Part shown: positions 3 to 14,283 of the stretch, piece by piece
How the letters are laid out: each line of letters opens with the position of its first letter
Numbering within the stretch: position 1 is the stretch's first letter
From: a virus
DNA: 30,234 nt
Reading direction: 5' to 3' (one strand)
IMG/VR virus record: IMGVR_UViG_3300042891_000351
Span: 1-30,234 of that record
Translations under genes and position numbers: made by a program
The notes under the pieces: model-generated
What the model was told of the DNA's origin: nothing
Seen by the model: only the letters and a program-made list of their open reading frames with translations
Databases searched by the model: none

Positions 3-1556
3 ATGAAACAAATTAATTTAAGCAATCAACAAAATAGTGATTGGGCATTGTTCTTGCCCGCTGTTAGTTCATTCTTTATCAGTGGACTGGGCAAACAGCG
101 TGAGGGTGAAAATTACTTTCCTGCTGACCGTATCCCTGCAGGTTTCAACGGTGATGTTGAATGTCTAAACTTTCTGAATAGTCAGAAAGGTTTGTTCAAT
201 TACAAATGGGGCTTGTATAGTGCAGGTCACGCTAACCTTGATACTACTGTTGATGATCATGCCGAAAGTATTATTCGTAAGCGTGAACCGGGAACGTTCA
301 TGCTAGGCGATAGTGGTGGATTTCAGATTCTCAAGTGCCAATGGCCAGCAGACTGGAAGGATCCTAACTGCCCACGCGCACTAGAAAAGCGCAAGGCCGT
401 TTTGAAATGGATGGATACATACATGGACTATGGTATGTGTTTAGATATCCCATCACAAAGTTTGACCACGTATCATATCAAGGATAAGAAAACCGGCAAG
501 AGTGCGCATGGTATCAGCACGATTGAAGAAGCGATTGCAGCCACACATATCAACAACGAATACTTCATCAAGAACCGTGATGGTCGTTGTAAATTCTTGA
601 ACGTAATGCAGGGTCGTAATCACAAGCAAAGTGATGACTGGTATCAAGAAATGAAAAAGTATTGCGACTCAAATATCTACCCAGATAATCATTTCAATGG
701 CTGGGCGTTCGGTGGTCAAAACAAGATTGATATTCACTTGATGCTGAAGCGCCTCGTACATATTATCCATGATGGCCTTTTAATTCCTGGCAAACACGAT
801 TTGTTGCATTGTTTGGGTACAAGCATTATGGAGTATGCAGTATTGTTTACTGACATACAAAAGGCTATACGCAAATATCACAATCCAAACTTTATGATTA
901 CCTTTGACTGTGCAAGTCCTTTCTATGGTGCAGCGAAGGGTCTTGCTTATTTTAATACTAATATTGAACACAACAAGAAGTGGTCATACAGTATGGAAAA
1001 GACTGCTGAAAGTAAGAGTTACGCTAACGACAATCGCAAGTTTAGCGATGCTGTATTAGCAGAAGGTATACACGATGTGTTTACTGATAGTCCTGTAACT
1101 GATCGTATGATGTTGAAAGACCTTTGCTATCGCGGTGTAGGATTCATAAATAATCAAGGCAAGGAGACAAAGACAAGTTGGGATACCTTGAGTTACACTC
1201 TAATTCAAGCACATAATGTCTATCAGCATATAACGGCAGTTCAAGAGGCTAATCGTCAATATGAACAAGGCGTGATTCCAAAAATGATAATGAATGAGAC
1301 TTTTGGTATTTACTTTGGTAAGGTAGTTGATGAAGTGTTCAGCCAAAAGACTAGAGAAGATAGTCTAAACGTGATAGAATATTATAACAAGTTTTGGATG
1401 CAAATGCAGAGTGGTAGTCAGGGCATCAGCGGTAAACGCACTGTCAATGCTATGACGATGTTTGATGAATTGTTTAGTGTTGATAAAGTTGAAGAAGAGG
1501 TTGAAGAAACAATAGAAGATAGTGATGACGCTATCAATGAAGTTTTGGAGAACTAA
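3..1556 (+). CDS. dpdA: DpdA-like DNA 7-deazaguanine transglycosylase (Tgt superfamily)
   Basis: 517 aa. It should swap guanine in DNA for a 7-deazaguanine base, as phage DpdA proteins (relatives of tRNA-guanine transglycosylase) do. Tgt-type landmarks are visible: GDSGGFQ at residues 102-108 with Asp103 as the likely general acid/base, a glycine-rich GWAFGGQ at 233-239, HCLGTS at 269-274, and FDCASP at 301-306 with Asp302 as the likely nucleophile. The C terminus (about 490-517) is very acidic. It is longer than a bacterial tRNA Tgt (about 375 aa), and folE, queD and queE lie in the same window, which favours a DNA rather than a tRNA substrate; that choice is inference. The ATG at 3 is at the window edge, so its ribosome binding site is not visible. 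The next gene begins 2 bases after the stop. Confidence 0.85.
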   Translation: MKQINLSNQQNSDWALFLPAVSSFFISGLGKQREGENYFPADRIPAGFNGDVECLNFLNSQKGLFNYKWGLYSAGHANLDTTVDDHAESIIRKREPGTFMLGDSGGFQILKCQWPADWKDPNCPRALEKRKAVLKWMDTYMDYGMCLDIPSQSLTTYHIKDKKTGKSAHGISTIEEAIAATHINNEYFIKNRDGRCKFLNVMQGRNHKQSDDWYQEMKKYCDSNIYPDNHFNGWAFGGQNKIDIHLMLKRLVHIIHDGLLIPGKHDLLHCLGTSIMEYAVLFTDIQKAIRKYHNPNFMITFDCASPFYGAAKGLAYFNTNIEHNKKWSYSMEKTAESKSYANDNRKFSDAVLAEGIHDVFTDSPVTDRMMLKDLCYRGVGFINNQGKETKTSWDTLSYTLIQAHNVYQHITAVQEANRQYEQGVIPKMIMNETFGIYFGKVVDEVFSQKTREDSLNVIEYYNKFWMQMQSGSQGISGKRTVNAMTMFDELFSVDKVEEEVEETIEDSDDAINEVLEN

Positions 1557-1557
1557 A

Positions 1558-1734
1558 ATGGCTAATACACAACAGATTCGTATACTAGAACAAAAGTTGC
1601 AACAACTGAGCAAGGGTCCTTTCAACACTGATAATATTCAAAAGACCTTAGAAATTCAATCAGCAATCAAACGGTTAAGGCGTCTTGAATGGGAAGAAAA
1701 TTATGAACGTATCAAAATGGAAGAAGAACGATGA
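1558..1734 (+). CDS. small charged coiled-coil protein, unknown
   Basis: 58 aa, starting MANTQQIRILEQKL. An upstream in-frame ATG at 1522 lies inside dpdA and is less likely; the ATG at 1558 sits directly after the dpdA stop. The protein is rich in Glu, Gln, Leu and Arg with leucine or isoleucine spacing that suggests one or two amphipathic helices. The stop overlaps the start of the next gene (ATGA at 1731-1734), so the pair is translationally coupled. No family is recognised. It could be a small accessory of DpdA or of the following T-fold protein, by position only. Confidence 0.7.
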   Translation: MANTQQIRILEQKLQQLSKGPFNTDNIQKTLEIQSAIKRLRRLEWEENYERIKMEEER

Positions 1735-2183
1735 GTGAAGATCCAGTAATTTATCAAACAGAACAGGCTATGGCTGATAAACGTGTTCGCATTAGCAACG
1801 CAGCCAAACGATTTATTTGGGTTACCTTTCAACGTGAGGGTATTCATAAATTTCCTGCTGCTGCTACAGATCCTAAACTTGCAGATGTTGCGTTTCTCGC
1901 AAACGAACACAGACACATTTTTCATTTTAATGTAGCAATTGAAGTATTTCACAACGATAGGGATATTGAGTTTATCCAGTTCAAGCGTTGGTTAGAAAGT
2001 CTCTACCAAGGCACACTGGAACTAAACTTCAAGAGTTGTGAGATGATTAGCGATGACCTCTATGAAGTTATTGCTAGTCGTTACCCAGGCCGTGACATTG
2101 AAATCACTGTCAGTGAAGATGGTGAGAACGGTGCCACGATTCGTTATAACACTACAAAACCAAATCTAAATGTAGTAATTTGA
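1731..2183 (+). CDS. T-fold protein resembling QueD/QueF, function unknown
   Basis: 150 aa. Residues 30-139 follow the order of elements in the T-fold enzymes of pterin and 7-deazaguanine synthesis. His39 and the HRH at 60-62 sit where QueD has its first zinc histidine and its HGH motif. IEFIQFKRWLESLY (79-92) resembles the strand-helix step (QueD DFxxLK, QueF ESxSLKxYL). KSCEMISDDL (101-110) resembles the TSE helix, and VSEDGENGA (127-135) resembles the C-terminal strand with its conserved Glu. The catalytic Cys before HGH and the Asp-His dyad of QueD are not apparent, so it is not a standard QueD; a genuine queD lies at 10141. Location next to dpdA suggests a role in making or loading the base. 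The family assignment is by eye and uncertain. Confidence 0.5.
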   Translation: MSEDPVIYQTEQAMADKRVRISNAAKRFIWVTFQREGIHKFPAAATDPKLADVAFLANEHRHIFHFNVAIEVFHNDRDIEFIQFKRWLESLYQGTLELNFKSCEMISDDLYEVIASRYPGRDIEITVSEDGENGATIRYNTTKPNLNVVI

Positions 2184-2194
2184 GGAGATGAAAA

Positions 2195-2404
2195 ATGTCA
2201 AAGGGTGTTAATAAGTCAAATGCTGTAGTCAATCAAATTTTTGATGACCTAGAAAGTTATCGTAATTTCTGTAGGCTATATGGTTATAAGTTTGACGAAT
2301 CTGATCTATACAGCAATCGTAGTTTTGCTTACAGGCAGTACACCAAATTCTTGCAAGGAAAGTCCTTCAAGGATATGTGGGAAATTGATGCAAAATCTGC
2401 CTGA
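2195..2404 (+). CDS. small hypothetical phage protein
   Basis: 69 aa. It has a clear GAGGAG ribosome binding site (2183-2188) spaced well before the ATG at 2195. The protein is rich in Tyr, Phe and charged residues and looks helical and soluble, with no signal peptide or membrane segment. The sequence ends KSFKDMWEIDAKSA. The last 17 bases overlap the start of the downstream cupin gene. No family is recognised. Confidence 0.7.
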   Translation: MSKGVNKSNAVVNQIFDDLESYRNFCRLYGYKFDESDLYSNRSFAYRQYTKFLQGKSFKDMWEIDAKSA

Positions 2405-2744
2405 TACAACTATCAGGCCCTGGGGCTATTACCGGGTTCTACATACAGTAGGTTCTAACGTCAAACTTAAAGAACTTACTGTTGAACCCGGTAAAAACCT
2501 GTCTATGCAAAAACATGACCATAGAAGCGAATTATGGTTTGTCGCTGAAGGAATAGCGACCCTAAATACTTTTAAAAATGATTCCATAGAACATGTATGC
2601 GACTATGGTTTATATCAATATGTTATTATAGATAGCGAAGATTGGCATCAATTACAGAACAATCAAGATTTTCCTCTAAAAATAATTGAGATTCAGTACG
2701 GCGATAAATGTATTGAGGAAGATATTACAAGGATAAATGTATGA
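2388..2744 (+). CDS. stand-alone cupin, ManC C-terminal (mannose-6-phosphate isomerase type II) family
   Basis: 118 aa from the ATG at 2388; a longer frame opens at 2280 but overlaps the preceding gene and adds no family-like sequence. Almost the whole protein matches the cupin half of bifunctional ManC: RPWGYY at 10-15, PGKNLSMQKHDHRSELW at 34-50 with metal-binding candidates His43, His45 and Glu48, a later His in EDWHQL, and the ending IEIQYGDKCIEEDITR. In ManC this domain interconverts fructose-6-P and mannose-6-P; the GDP-mannose pyrophosphorylase half is missing here. It may act as a sugar-phosphate isomerase feeding the glycosyltransferase gene that follows with an ATGA overlap at 2741. 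Substrate is inference. Confidence 0.8.
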   Translation: MQNLPDTTIRPWGYYRVLHTVGSNVKLKELTVEPGKNLSMQKHDHRSELWFVAEGIATLNTFKNDSIEHVCDYGLYQYVIIDSEDWHQLQNNQDFPLKIIEIQYGDKCIEEDITRINV

Positions 2745-3910
2745 GAAAATTATTTTACATGGGACTTGAGCCATACAAGGCTCGCTATACATTACAACTA
2801 ACTGACTGGAACGAACGTGTATTCAGAAAGCGTGGGATACATTACGTAATTGTTCCGGGCGATACATTATCTAGTGATCAAAATATCGTAGTTGGTCAAG
2901 TCCTTGACGCGCATGGTCGCACACACTATAGCCTCACACAGATGGCTAATCTCATCAAGTTGATGAAGAGTGGCGAAGTCACAAGTGAAGATGTGATTTA
3001 CTTTGAAGATATGTACACTTCAGGTCTTGAGAGTTTAGCATATATCATCAAGCAAGTTCCAGAACAATATCGTCCAAAGATTTTTGTTCGCTGTTTGGCA
3101 CAAACTATTGATCCAGATGATTTCTTACATGTATGGGGCATGGATGGCTTCATGCGCAAGTATGAAGAAATGATCAATGAATTCTGTATTATTCTTGCTA
3201 GCAATGAAGAGATGGTCATGCATATGAAGGTTGCAGGCTGGAAGGCTCCTATCTACAATATCAGTGGTCTAGCATTTGGTAAAGATGAAGTGCGTAGTCG
3301 TGTGAAATCTATCAAGCCATTTGAATTGAAGAAGCGTAGAGTTGTTTTTGCTGCACGTTGGGATCAAGAAAAACAGCCAGACTTTTACATGGACATTATT
3401 GAAAAGTATACCAAGGCACACAACGGTGACGTTGAATTCGCATTATTGAGTGGTGCAAAACTACGTAGCAATAATAGTTCATATATGGAACGCACATACA
3501 GATTAGAACGTGAAGGCAAACTAAACATCTATAGCGACCTCAGTAAAGACGAATATTATGGGATATTGAACGACAGCCGTGTATTATTCAACTGTGCTTT
3601 GCAAGACTGGGTTAGCAATACTGTCAGCGAAGCGGATGCATTAGGATGTAATGTTGTATATCCAGCATATCGCAGTTTCCCAGAAACGTTCGCTAATGAT
3701 CATACACGATTGTATGTACCTTGGTCACAGGATGACGCATTGAATAAACTCAATCATTGGGTATTCAATGAACATCCACGAATCGGACAAATTAGCGACT
3801 GGACTGATAAAACGATAGATAGAATATGCGATATCCTTGAAGGCAAGGGTGAAGAATGGTTGCGTATGAGTACTGATTATCGTAAGCATACAAGAGAAAG
3901 CAAATACTAA
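2741..3910 (+). CDS. glycosyltransferase, GT-B fold, family 1/4-like
   Basis: 389 aa. The C-terminal half has the nucleotide-sugar binding layout of GT-B enzymes: a strand-start RVVFAARWDQEKQPDFY (about 204-220), then a variable stretch, then VSNTVSEADALGCNVVYPAYRSFPETF, the acidic loop and glycine turn that contact the donor. The N-terminal half is less conserved, as expected for the acceptor domain. There is no signal peptide or membrane helix, so it should act in the cytoplasm. It is coupled by ATGA to the ManC-type cupin, so a mannose-derived donor is possible. The acceptor could be a phage virion protein, modified DNA or host surface glycan; nothing in the sequence decides this. Confidence 0.7.
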   Translation: MRKLFYMGLEPYKARYTLQLTDWNERVFRKRGIHYVIVPGDTLSSDQNIVVGQVLDAHGRTHYSLTQMANLIKLMKSGEVTSEDVIYFEDMYTSGLESLAYIIKQVPEQYRPKIFVRCLAQTIDPDDFLHVWGMDGFMRKYEEMINEFCIILASNEEMVMHMKVAGWKAPIYNISGLAFGKDEVRSRVKSIKPFELKKRRVVFAARWDQEKQPDFYMDIIEKYTKAHNGDVEFALLSGAKLRSNNSSYMERTYRLEREGKLNIYSDLSKDEYYGILNDSRVLFNCALQDWVSNTVSEADALGCNVVYPAYRSFPETFANDHTRLYVPWSQDDALNKLNHWVFNEHPRIGQISDWTDKTIDRICDILEGKGEEWLRMSTDYRKHTRESKY

Positions 3911-4498: not shown

Positions 4499-4665
4499 TG
4501 GACATTCAACCTAAAGATACTAGCCGTGGGCACTTTTATGCTAGTATAGCAAAGAGTGTTGTTCGTATAGGTGCAGGAGCATTATTGATCGCAGGTAATA
4601 TCGTGCTTGCAGGTGTGTTCCTGATACTAGCAGAAACACTAGGGGTCGTAGAAGAGGTTGTATAA
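4498..4665 (+). CDS. small single-helix membrane protein
   Basis: 55 aa, beginning [16 protein letters not shown]. One strongly hydrophobic segment runs from about residue 20 to 46 (rich in Val, Ile, Leu, Ala, Gly), followed by an acidic tail [10 protein letters not shown]. The ATG at 4498 overlaps the stop of the histone-like gene by one base and its own TAA overlaps the guaC start by one base (TAATG), so it is embedded in the operon. Its function is unknown; a holin or antiholin role cannot be excluded but nothing specific supports it. Confidence 0.7.
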
Positions 4666-5693
4666 TGCGTATTGAAGAGGATATCAAATTAGATTTCAAA
4701 GATGTACTATTCCGTCCCAAGCGTAGTACATTAAGTAGCCGCAAAGAAGTAGAACTTGAACGCAAGTTTACTTTTAAACATAGCGGCAAGGTCTATAACG
4801 GTATCCCCATCATGGCTGCTAACATGGACGGTGTTGGCACACTTAAGATGGCTGAGGAAATCAGCCGTCATAAACTTTTCACTTGTTTGACAAAGAGTCA
4901 TACATTTGATATGTTGGCTGATAATATTTTTAGTATAGGTACTGATTACTTTGCTGTTAGTACTGGTACTAATGATAAAGATTTAGAAAGACTACAACAG
5001 ATTTTCAATGTCTATCCTGAAATAGAATATATCTGTATTGACGTTGCTAATGGATACAGCGAACATTTTGGTATATTCGTCAGCAAGATTCGTGAAAAGT
5101 ATCCAAAGAAAACTATTATTGCTGGTAACGTTGTTACCGCAGATATGACACAGGAGTTGATATTACGTGGAGCAGACATCATCAAAGTTGGAATCGGACC
5201 GGGTAGCGTTTGCACTACTCGCATTCAGACTGGCGTTGGGTATCCCCAGCTTAGTGCTATTATGGAATGTGCTGACGCCGCTCATGGTCTTGGTGGCCAT
5301 ATCATTGCTGACGGTGGATGCACTTGTCCTGGTGACATCGCTAAAGCCTTTGGGGCTGGTGCAGACTTTGTGATGTTGGGCGGCATGCTTGCCGGACATG
5401 ACGAAGGTGGCGGACATATTGAAGATGGACATGTAACCTTCTATGGCATGAGTAGTGATACTGCCATGAATAAACATAATGGTGGTGTTGCTGAATATCG
5501 TAGTAGCGAAGGTCGCACAGTACGTGTTCCATATCGCGGCGCTGTAAGCCATACAGTACTTGATATATTGGGCGGTATACGCAGCACTTGTACATATGTT
5601 GGCGCAGATAGCCTAAAGAACTTGAGTAAATGCACAACTTTTGTAAGAGTAACACAGCAATACAACGGTGTATTCGCAAATGGCAAATCCTAA
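4665..5693 (+). CDS. guaC: GMP reductase
   Basis: 342 aa, about the length of E. coli GuaC and very similar along its whole length: the start [20 protein letters not shown], the substrate loop GPGSVCTT at 178-185 with catalytic Cys183, [41 protein letters not shown] and GGMLAGHDE. It lacks the CBS insert of IMP dehydrogenase. GuaC reduces GMP to IMP with NADPH and releases ammonia, in the cytoplasm. One residue noted is AANMDGVGT where cellular enzymes usually have MDTVGT. In a phage with FolE, QueD, QueE and DpdA it could rebalance purines or recycle guanine. The 3' end overlaps the next gene by 14 bases. Confidence 0.92.
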
Positions 5694-6495: not shown

Positions 6496-7176
6496 ATGAG
6501 TTATAACAAAACAAAGACCGATCCTGAGTTGGGCAAGCGTGTTCACGAATATCTAGTTAGTGTCGGCGTAGAAACGCCCACAAAAGAAAATACACTAGAC
6601 CGTAAAGAAAAGATTGACATCATTGAAGGCCATTTCGCAGCAATCATGCGAACATTGGGTCTTGACCTTAGTGATGATAGCCTAGCAGAAACACCTAAGC
6701 GTGTTGCTAAAATGTATACAAACGAAATCTTTTGGGGTCTTGACTATGAAGCGTTCCCTAAATGTACAACTGTTGACAACAAGATGCACTACAATGAGAT
6801 GGTTGTAGAGCGTAACGTCAATGTACAAAGCAATTGTGAACATCACTTTGTTGTCATTGATGGTCTTGCTACAGTGGCATATGTACCCAAAAGGAAAGTG
6901 CTTGGTCTAAGCAAGATCAATCGCATAGTTGAATACTTCAGCAAGCGTCCACAGATTCAAGAACGATTGACTGAACAGATTTTCCACACACTCTGTTTCA
7001 TCCTTGAGACAGATGATGTTGCCGTCATGATCGATGCACAACATTATTGCGTAAAGAGCCGCGGTGTTGAAGATACTGGTAGTAGTACAGTCACTAGTCG
7101 TCTTGGTGGTGGTTTCAAGACTGATCCAGCAGCAAGACAAGAATTTTACAATATCGCAAGAGCAGGCTGTAAGTGA
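6496..7176 (+). CDS. folE: GTP cyclohydrolase I
   Basis: 226 aa, the usual length for FolE. Zinc ligands are in place: Cys114 and His117 in NCEHHF and Cys185 in HYCVKSRG, with the same 71-residue spacing as in E. coli FolE. The motifs ETPKRVAKMY (65-74), YVPKRKVLGLSKINRIVEYFSKRPQIQERL (from 129) and SSTVTSRLGG are also typical. It converts GTP to 7,8-dihydroneopterin triphosphate, the first step of both folate and 7-deazaguanine synthesis. A strong AAGGAAGGAG ribosome binding site precedes the ATG after a 72-base gap, so it may begin its own transcription unit. The presence of queD and queE argues for the 7-deazaguanine route. Confidence 0.93.
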   Translation: MSYNKTKTDPELGKRVHEYLVSVGVETPTKENTLDRKEKIDIIEGHFAAIMRTLGLDLSDDSLAETPKRVAKMYTNEIFWGLDYEAFPKCTTVDNKMHYNEMVVERNVNVQSNCEHHFVVIDGLATVAYVPKRKVLGLSKINRIVEYFSKRPQIQERLTEQIFHTLCFILETDDVAVMIDAQHYCVKSRGVEDTGSSTVTSRLGGGFKTDPAARQEFYNIARAGCK

Positions 7177-9930: not shown

Positions 9931-10148
9931 AACTAACATGGGAAAATAACAAAGGTGATAAAGTCATCGTGATTTACAACAAAGATTGTATCACCGATAA
10001 CGAAGTTAAATTAGACGCTCATATGGCACTTGAACCGATGTGGGAAAGTCTAAAAGCCAAGATCGTTGAAGAATATGAAGCAAGAGAACTTAGTTTTTCT
10101 AAACCTTCAAAATTAAAAGACCTAATACACGGATTAAAAAATGCCTAA
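9927..10148 (+). CDS. small hypothetical protein
   Basis: 73 aa, starting KLTWENNKGDKVIVIYNKDC. Mixed strand and helix composition with a C-terminal helix rich in Lys and Leu. It overlaps sufE by 4 bases (ATGA) and queD by 8 bases, so it is in the same translational unit. No motif recognised. Confidence 0.65.
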   Translation: MKLTWENNKGDKVIVIYNKDCITDNEVKLDAHMALEPMWESLKAKIVEEYEARELSFSKPSKLKDLIHGLKNA

Positions 10149-10632
10149 ATATTACAGCACAAAGACATACGGTAATGATCGTGGTCTAAGTTGTGCTTTC
10201 CGTCAATGGCGCAGCACACATAGTCATTGTAGTTTACTACATGGCTATAGCATTGGTATACGCTTAGTATTTGAATCAGACACGCTTGATTGTCGTAACT
10301 GGGTCATGGACTTTGGTGGACTAAAGAAGTTCAAGCAGTGGACTGAATATATGTTTGATCATACCACACTTGTTGCTGAAGATGATCCGCATCTTGATTT
10401 TTTTCTGACTATGGCAAAAATTAACGGCGGATACAAAGATAAAGGTGTAGTTGACCTACGTGTTGTTCCGGCAGTAGGTTGTGAAAAATTTGCCGAAATG
10501 GCTTATCAAAAAATGGAACAGATAATTGAAGAAATGAAAGAGACAGAAGGGATAATTGTAAACGGTAATGTACGTGTAAAAAGTGTTGAAGTATTTGAAC
10601 ACGAAGCAAATAGCGCAATTTACGAGGGTTGA
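10141..10632 (+). CDS. queD: 6-carboxy-tetrahydropterin synthase
   Basis: 163 aa. FRQW at 20-23 then HSHCSLLHGYSIGI contains the catalytic Cys30 and the C-x3-HG signature of QueD, here HGY instead of HGH as in one proteobacterial and phage subgroup. NWVMDFGGLKKF (53-64), the catalytic dyad FDHTTL (Asp73, His74), PAVGCEKFAEMAY with its Glu, and VEVFEHEANSAIY at the end complete the pattern. It converts dihydroneopterin triphosphate, made by FolE, to CPH4. The expected substrate and product enzymes (folE at 6496, queE at 13420) are both present. Confidence 0.9.
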   Translation: MPKYYSTKTYGNDRGLSCAFRQWRSTHSHCSLLHGYSIGIRLVFESDTLDCRNWVMDFGGLKKFKQWTEYMFDHTTLVAEDDPHLDFFLTMAKINGGYKDKGVVDLRVVPAVGCEKFAEMAYQKMEQIIEEMKETEGIIVNGNVRVKSVEVFEHEANSAIYEG

Positions 10633-10633
10633 T

Positions 10634-11167
10634 ATGTCAAAGTCTGAAAAAGAAGTTTTTTATTCTCCAAAACAAATCAATGGGTTTTTATTAAACATCA
10701 ATAAGCAAATGGTACAAGACAATTTTCGCCCTGATTATATTATAGGAATCACGCGCGGCGGATTAGTACCTGCTTTAAAATTGAGTCATTATCTAGAAAT
10801 TCCTATGTATGCACTAGGCGAAGATGAAAGCAATCTATGGATGGCTGAAGATGCTTTTGGATATGAGTCGGTGAATGACAAAGGTACTAGTGTTCCAACA
10901 AAACGAAAAAATATTTTAATTGTTGATGATATAAATGATACCGGTACTACATTGAATAACCTTAAAAATGATTGGCAATCAGGATGTTTACCACATAATT
11001 CTTCATGGAATGATGTCTGGCACAGAAATGTTAAATTTGCTGTATTGATTGATAATGAAGCAAGCGCCTTTAATTGTGACTATAACGGGGTCACAATAAA
11101 TAAATTTGAAAATCCAGAGTGGTGCGTTTTTCCTTGGGAAAACTGGTGGTTAGAACAAAATAATTAA
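10634..11167 (+). CDS. purine-type phosphoribosyltransferase
   Basis: 177 aa from the ATG at 10634; a longer frame starts at 10583 inside queD. The type I PRTase fold is clear: DYIIGITRGGLVPALKLSHYL (34-54) and the PRPP loop ILIVDDINDTGTTL (94-107). Such enzymes join a base to PRPP to give a nucleotide and pyrophosphate. Similarity in layout to Gpt/Hpt suggests guanine, xanthine or hypoxanthine as substrate, but the hood region does not decide this. With GuaC in the window a guanine-to-GMP-to-IMP salvage route is possible. An A+T-rich gene with one base between it and queD. Confidence 0.75.
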   Translation: MSKSEKEVFYSPKQINGFLLNINKQMVQDNFRPDYIIGITRGGLVPALKLSHYLEIPMYALGEDESNLWMAEDAFGYESVNDKGTSVPTKRKNILIVDDINDTGTTLNNLKNDWQSGCLPHNSSWNDVWHRNVKFAVLIDNEASAFNCDYNGVTINKFENPEWCVFPWENWWLEQNN

Positions 11168-13201: not shown

Positions 13202-13457
13202 CACACCGGAAGAAGTTATTGATATCATCAAGCCCCTCGGTATGTATAATATCAGGGAGAAGAGATTGCGCGGTATGAGCCGTGATTACTTGACTTGGGA
13301 CAAAGTAGATGCTAATATGTTGTATGGTATAGGTAAATATGGTAGCGATAGTTATGAGATATTTTACAAACAAAACTATAAAGTACAGCCTACCGACAAA
13401 GAACTAATAAGGTATTTGAATGAAGAAGTCAATCAAGGTCAGCGAACTATTCTATAG
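13032..13457 (+). CDS. HhH-GPD DNA glycosylase, MBD4-like
   Basis: 141 aa, probable TTG start at 13032 with AGGGAG 6 bases upstream; the first ATG (13062) would remove 10 residues. The pattern matches the catalytic domain of the MBD4 thymine/uracil glycosylase: VGVIMLNQTGRKPVKYVLPKF, then EEVIDIIKPLGMYNIREKRL, the helix-hairpin-helix LYGIGKYGSDSYEIF (97-111) and PTDKELIRYL with catalytic Asp122. There is no C-terminal Fe-S cluster. Such enzymes remove T or U opposite G. It may repair deaminated cytosines in phage DNA or act on host DNA. It overlaps the preceding ORF by 170 bases and queE by 38 bases. Confidence 0.75.
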   Translation: MKVKALRDDLMVQQQVKNEWEHMVGVIMLNQTGRKPVKYVLPKFLKKFPNAKSLLNSTPEEVIDIIKPLGMYNIREKRLRGMSRDYLTWDKVDANMLYGIGKYGSDSYEIFYKQNYKVQPTDKELIRYLNEEVNQGQRTIL

Positions 13458-14283
13458 CATTCAAGGTGAAGGTCGCTATATGGGCGTCCCTAGCGTGTTC
13501 TTGCGCACGTTTGGTTGTAATTTCACTTGCGATGGCTTTGGAATGAAACGAGGCGAGAAGTCGCAAGAGAGACATAAGGTCAATCCTAAAGATTATAAAG
13601 ACTATAAAGAATTGCCATTAGTCAGTACTGGTTGTGATAGTTACGCAAGTTGGGATGTACGTTTCAAGAAACTAAGCCCTACCTATAGTACTGATGAACT
13701 AGCAGAAAATATTGTTGACATATTGCCATATAAAGAGTGGAATGATGAACATCTTGTCATCACAGGTGGTGAGCCATTGCTAGGTTGGCAGCGCAGTTAT
13801 CCGGATTTACTTGATCATGAATTGATGCACAATCTCAAAGAGATCACTTTTGAAACGAATGGTACACAAGAATTATCTAAAGACCTAGCAGAATATCTTG
13901 TAAGTTGGCAGGAAGATAAGAACTGGCATCTAACACGAGGATATGATAGTGTGACATTCAGCGTAAGCGCAAAACTTAGCGTAAGCGGAGAGAAGAGAGA
14001 AGAAGCGATACGACCCGAAGTTGTATGTGGTTATCAGGATATAGGTCATACATATCTAAAGTTTGTGATCGCATCACATGAAGATTGTGAAGAAGCACTA
14101 GAGGTGGTAAAAATATATCGTAGCGTGGGTTTTACTGGCAACGTTTATCTGATGCCAGTAGGTGGTGTTGAGAGTGTGTACAGCCTGAACAATCGTGCTG
14201 TAGCAGAGTTTGCTATGAAACATGGACTACGGTATAGTGATAGACTTCAGGTTCTTCTTTTCAAAAACCTCTGGGGTACTTGA
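13420..14283 (+). CDS. queE: 7-carboxy-7-deazaguanine synthase (radical SAM)
   Basis: 287 aa. YSIQGEGRYMGVPSVFLRTFGCNFTC at the start is diagnostic for QueE. The radical SAM cluster ligands appear as Cys33 and Cys37 followed by Cys72 in STGCDSYASW, a CX3CX34C arrangement instead of the usual CX3CX2C or CX14CX2C, because of an inserted loop with many Lys and Asp. TGGEPL (115-120) and FETNGT (about 144-149) are present. It rearranges CPH4 (from QueD) to CDG using SAM. The loop form also occurs, to my recollection, in other phages. It overlaps the glycosylase gene by 38 bases. Confidence 0.9.
   Translation: MKKSIKVSELFYSIQGEGRYMGVPSVFLRTFGCNFTCDGFGMKRGEKSQERHKVNPKDYKDYKELPLVSTGCDSYASWDVRFKKLSPTYSTDELAENIVDILPYKEWNDEHLVITGGEPLLGWQRSYPDLLDHELMHNLKEITFETNGTQELSKDLAEYLVSWQEDKNWHLTRGYDSVTFSVSAKLSVSGEKREEAIRPEVVCGYQDIGHTYLKFVIASHEDCEEALEVVKIYRSVGFTGNVYLMPVGGVESVYSLNNRAVAEFAMKHGLRYSDRLQVLLFKNLWGT

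Follow-up and report, generated by a model that had tools for sequence, protein, structure and literature searches.

QueD (6-carboxy-5,6,7,8-tetrahydropterin synthase, 4ntk) is a T-fold enzyme with three zinc histidines and a base-anchoring glutamate, and these features have predicted counterparts in a protein encoded on the 30,234-nucleotide stretch of viral DNA analysed here (IMG/VR record IMGVR_UViG_3300042891_000351; hereafter the window). We refer to it as the QueD-fold protein (working label DPL). QueF and QueF-L, a nitrile reductase and an amidotransferase, respectively, are likewise T-fold enzymes with 7-deazaguanine substrates and were weaker Foldseek matches, but they have other active-site residues, and the one phage QueF compared showed no profile similarity to the QueD-fold protein. 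A decarboxylase of 7-carboxy-7-deazaguanine (CDG), named DpdL, was reportedly predicted by Cui et al. (2023, in NAR) in phages whose DNA contains 7-deazaguanine. The QueD-fold protein has this predicted role in common with DpdL, in phages that make CDG, and it was found in the same setting, namely phages with FolE, QueD and QueE and without QueC. The QueD-fold family (phrog_17812) is presumably DpdL, and may already carry that name. The conversion of CDG to preQ0 is catalysed by QueC (PMC13329287). In tubercidin biosynthesis, the UbiD-type enzyme TubF has been proposed to decarboxylate a CDG nucleotide (PMC6112128); decarboxylation of a CDG-derived compound is the point in common with the QueD-fold protein, whereas TubF belongs to an unrelated family, uses prenylated FMN and acts on a nucleotide.

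The QueD-fold gene encodes 150 aa and matches phrog_17812 (function unknown) with an E value of 2.6e-36; its ATG start overlaps the stop of a preceding small ORF (ATGA). Pfam gave no convincing match to the protein, and sequence searches of Pfam, PADLOC, NCBIfam and the PDB returned no useful family for it or for its DpdA neighbour, so that fold comparison was needed for both. The AlphaFold2 model, based on 35 homologues as input, had a mean pLDDT of 89.4 and the element order beta-beta-alpha-alpha-beta-beta. Ten Foldseek matches against the PDB fell below E 0.001, nine of them to E. coli QueD (best 4ntk, E 1.9e-4, probability 1.00) and the tenth to a Pyrococcus PTPS, with QueF-like proteins, dihydroneopterin aldolase and GTP cyclohydrolase I at lower ranks. 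Profile-profile comparison (hhalign) aligned the protein with QueD in register (probability 96.1, E 1.8e-9), and the probabilities for the FolE, QueF and QueE controls were at most 0.3, with 0.1 for FolE (GTP cyclohydrolase I) and 0.0 for QueF, whose control was a single phage sequence. The original prediction of a T-fold protein with QueD-like element order beside dpdA, for which a non-T-fold topology would have been adverse evidence, is borne out by a real ORF with a predicted T-fold topology on which the model, Foldseek and the profile comparison agree. By its predicted structure and its purine/pterin-anchoring glutamate the protein belongs to the T-fold, or PTPS-QueD, superfamily, and we assign it with high confidence as a T-fold enzyme of the CDG branch. 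The features of the locus are listed in Table 1.

Table 1 Features of the locus and of related loci. Coordinates refer to the window unless a contig label is given.
Feature	Position	Strand	Evidence or remarks
DpdA-type DNA guanine transglycosylase	3..1556	+	motifs DSGGFQ (103), FDCASP (301); AF2 + Foldseek
QueD-fold protein, proposed CDG decarboxylase	1731..2183	+	ORF, phrog_17812, AF2, Foldseek
His39 codon, predicted Zn ligand (= E. coli QueD His16)	1845..1847	+	invariant 134/134, alignment
His60-Arg61-His62, predicted Zn ligands (= QueD HGH 31-33)	1908..1916	+	H60, H62 134/134; R61 132/134
H74-x-x-R77-x-x-E80, family-specific motif after strand 2	1950..1970	+	H74 133/134; R77, E80 134/134
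Ser102-Cys103-Glu104, replaces QueD T-S-E segment	2034..2042	+	134/134 each; aligned with QueD PTSE
Glu129, predicted base-anchoring T-fold Glu (= QueD Glu110)	2115..2117	+	134/134; aligned with QueD KET Glu
Conserved 69-aa ORF immediately downstream, function unknown	2195..2404	+	homologue in 105/136 unique loci; 94 within 600 bp downstream
GT4-like glycosyltransferase, conserved neighbour	2741..3910	+	within 2 kb of QueD-fold gene in 103/136 loci
FolE (GTP cyclohydrolase I)	6496..7176	+	PF01227 E 1.3e-60
QueD, phage type, Cys + FDH kept, HGY for HGH	10141..10632	+	PF01242 E 3.3e-15; phrog_2389 E 4.8e-37
QueE (CDG synthase)	13420..14283	+	phrog_2076 E 3.5e-54
Further GT4-like members	L081 10963-11991; L085 10861-11922; L175 6889-8058; L090 10367-11533		

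Conservation was scored across 134 distinct homologues, and the E. coli QueD reference sequence used for the alignment was checked against PDB entries. His39, Leu56, His60, His62, Phe64, Arg77, Glu80, Ser102, Cys103, Glu104 and Glu129 were invariant in all 134. The three candidate zinc histidines thereby match the zinc ligands of QueD, the metal itself being predicted, and the conservation of Glu129 among homologues was as anticipated. The loss of the QueD catalytic residues likewise held up: the position of the catalytic cysteine, four before His60, is Leu56 throughout, and the alignment with E. coli QueD contains no counterpart of the Asp-His dyad. Unlike QueD, the protein has in addition the His74/Arg77/Glu80 and Ser102-Cys103-Glu104 residues, for which, as for the zinc, we infer a role, and it occurs alongside a real QueD. 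The protein is best explained as a paralogue of QueD that has lost the ability to form 6-carboxytetrahydropterin.

An IMG/VR scan for relatives of the QueD-fold protein gave at least 599 matches, and 27 GenBank phage records matched; a search begun from a distant relative returned the identical count and the identical organisms. No relatives were found on plasmids. In cellular genomes the protein was rare: the class to which one archaeal carrier belongs had it in 2 of 238 genomes and that of Magnetospirillum in 1 of 385, all of these being carriers already known. Fusions in Bakedbeans and MA9V-3 had uninformative partner domains. At least one 7-deazaguanine gene was present in 104 of the 106 unique IMG/VR loci, the two others being short fragments with the QueD-fold gene at the edge; the homologues are hence not widespread in phages lacking such genes, a distribution that would have spoken against the original prediction.

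The pathway genes were examined in 31 carriers of the QueD-fold protein, comprising 12 named phages and 19 IMG/VR contigs. FolE, QueE and QueD were present in 30, 30 and 29 of the 31, respectively, and this near-complete co-occurrence agrees with a protein that works after CDG and is not itself QueD. The QueD match in Aeromonas phage Ahp1 was weak; the protein concerned (L206 659-1600, 305 aa) seemingly contains two T-fold units and is probably the divergent QueD of Ahp1. In the window, the separate QueD that had been called canonical is indeed encoded and keeps the catalytic residues, but its altered zinc motif makes it a divergent phage QueD rather than a canonical one. A second step upstream of QueE, for instance one catalysed by a CPH4 synthase of another type or by a T-fold enzyme that processes pterins, would fit the QueD/PTPS fold, the zinc site and the pterin-anchoring glutamate of the QueD-fold protein. 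We consider it highly improbable, as nearly all carriers already have QueD (29/31), the QueD cysteine and Asp-His dyad are gone, and the exclusion of QueC described below would be left unexplained.

A clear QueC was found in none of the 31 carriers, and most of the weak matches were to PP-loop enzymes of other kinds. On motif inspection, the weak QueC matches in Xanthomonas X1 and one contig resembled NAD synthetase and that in another carrier resembled asparagine synthase; PP-loop proteins that fit no clear role were among the weak QueC matches of one carrier contig, and Vibrio phage D479, also a carrier, encodes a PP-loop protein that resembles QueC but has altered motifs. By comparison, QueC was detected in 13 of 13 diverse QueE-positive control phages without the QueD-fold protein (nt-1, pf16, Voja-6, NCTB, phi3:1, Moby, PhiXhv-15, Godines, HVTV-1, CP220, Iggy, Megan and 1.081.O), with partial matches in NCTB and Moby. 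Fisher's test on carriers versus controls gave p 2.7e-11, a value that is optimistic because the lineages are not independent; with named phages only and D479 counted as having QueC, p was 5.6e-6, again optimistic owing to shared ancestry. QueC was also absent from all 106 unique IMG/VR loci, which is weak evidence of absence since these contigs are fragments. Given that carriers have no clear QueC, their pathway would halt at CDG. Of the two substrates envisaged in the original prediction of a new base-modifying enzyme, CDG is therefore retained and preQ0, the product of the missing enzyme, is unsupported.

The top four Foldseek matches of the AlphaFold2 model of the DpdA-type neighbour were tRNA-guanine transglycosylases (TGTs), the best being 1p0d with E 1.6e-6. 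DpdA was found in 46 of 46 IMG/VR loci over 12 kb, in line with the expected co-occurrence with dpdA, and close co-directional linkage of the two genes was seen in 100 of 106 IMG loci. Eukaryotic TGT has a non-catalytic partner subunit. The linkage and the loss of the QueD catalytic residues would be compatible with a similar arrangement here, in which a dead QueD paralogue binds CDG and presents the base to DpdA. This we regard as distinctly improbable: Arg77, Glu80, Ser102, Cys103 and Glu104 are strictly invariant, beyond what binding alone suggests, the protein accompanies several DpdA types that have little or no detectable similarity to one another, and two archaeal operons carry the gene without DpdA. 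A carrier for the modified base, proposed earlier as the other possible role, is disfavoured by the strict invariance of eleven core residues and by the same archaeal loci, which contain FolE, QueD and QueE in the absence of DpdA.

These archaeal loci, from Methanoperedenaceae (L182 3828-14303) and Methanosarcinales (L183 2880-13428), share a conserved operon in which QueD, QueE, FolE and the QueD-fold gene occur with genes for a linalool dehydratase/isomerase-like protein, a methyltransferase, transporter parts and a UbiA prenyltransferase. Neither DpdA nor QueC was detected within them, and the gene content resembles that of a cluster for a 7-deazapurine natural product. The presence of the gene in QueD-QueE-FolE operons without DpdA indicates that the QueD-fold protein probably works on a small molecule rather than as a subunit of DpdA; its substrate is likely the free base.

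Several further observations concern the company of the gene. In phages without other DpdA types, a family of 260-420 aa (phrog_20335/19058) lies near the QueD-fold gene (L082 12804-13583; L091 10785-11579; L089 10692-11549; L088 10426-11298; L083 from 12080; L087 from 17036); most members have a DN[SG][AG]F motif, their resemblance to known DpdA is very faint, and the family may be a divergent DpdA. The window also encodes a GMP reductase/IMPDH-type enzyme (4665-5693; relatives in 17/136 loci) and a phosphoribosyltransferase (10583-11167; relatives in 12/136 loci), which could recycle the guanine released by DpdA. On contigs of Magnetospirillum and a Rhodospirillaceae MAG (L174-L178, up to 1.4 Mb) the glycosyltransferase, the QueD-fold protein, DpdA and QueD occur together, for example at L175 6889-10971, where an integrase is nearby; we read these clusters as a mobile element or a bacterial DNA modification island.

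Glycos_transf_1 matches were obtained for 9 of 11 members of the GT4-like glycosyltransferase family, whose gene adjoins the QueD-fold gene in Phosso, ACP17, PA5oct, BUCT-ZZ01 and Magnetospirillum. Most loci have it beside the QueD-fold gene, a hint that the 7-deazaguanine in the DNA may be glycosylated. The glycosyltransferase was absent from phiST, MA9V-3, D479, Ahp1, RHph_I1_18, Bakedbeans and Roos. One QueC-positive control without the QueD-fold protein (W19) had a weaker GT relative; hence its association with carriers is suggestive only, and its frequency in carriers (5/12) and controls (1/13) did not differ firmly (p 0.07). These data bear on another reaction on CDG, in which the carboxyl would be changed to another group, for instance an ester, a reduced form or an attachment point for the glycosyltransferase next door. 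Further decoration is suggested by the frequency of the neighbour (103/136 loci), and 7-deazaguanine itself has no hydroxyl to serve as a handle. Such a reaction is nevertheless unlikely in our estimation, considering that these proteins of 115-150 aa show no evident motif for a nucleotide, NADPH or SAM, that many carriers (phiST, MA9V-3, D479, Ahp1) have no GT4-like gene, and that the weak relative in W19 belongs to a QueC-positive phage without the QueD-fold protein.

We consider it fairly probable that the QueD-fold protein is a zinc-dependent CDG decarboxylase that yields 7-deazaguanine. With the base pocket and metal site kept, the pterin chemistry lost and a place in the pathway directly after CDG, removal of the carboxyl is the simplest reaction. 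Phage FolE, QueD and QueE would supply CDG, which would be held in the T-fold base pocket by Glu129 and Ser102-Cys103-Glu104, with a zinc on His39, His60 and His62. The 7-carboxyl, which zinc and Arg77 may keep in place, would then be removed, and the proton for C7 might come from His74, Glu80 or Cys103. Protonation followed by loss of CO2 is possible at C7 of the pyrrole ring. The 7-deazaguanine product would enter DNA via DpdA. We know of no T-fold decarboxylase. A more extended scheme, in which a zinc T-fold decarboxylase releases free 7-deazaguanine, DpdA inserts it, the adjacent GT4-like enzyme glycosylates the DNA base in most carriers and the same decarboxylase serves the synthesis of a 7-deazapurine natural product in Methanoperedens-type archaea, is as a whole rather doubtful.

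Two cases count against decarboxylation, the QueC-like protein of D479 and the locus of Faecalibacterium phage Roos. Roos is the sole carrier that lacks FolE, QueD and QueE altogether, and in its locus (L092 11297-13893) ParB-like, QueD-fold and DpdA-like genes stand in this order ahead of a YhhQ-family transporter gene. YhhQ is a known preQ0 importer (PMC5372724). The Roos locus still belongs to 7-deazaguanine metabolism but may draw on an imported base, possibly a 7-deazaguanine precursor, a situation that CDG decarboxylation does not explain.

Taken at face value, the gene content suggests that QueE-bearing phages are split between those whose pathway ends in QueC and those in which it ends in the QueD-fold protein. 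Decarboxylation of CDG, if true, would as far as we know be a new T-fold chemistry and would explain the phage source of plain 7-deazaguanine. The proposal also assigns phrog_17812, a large phage family so far without annotation, a role that can be tested.
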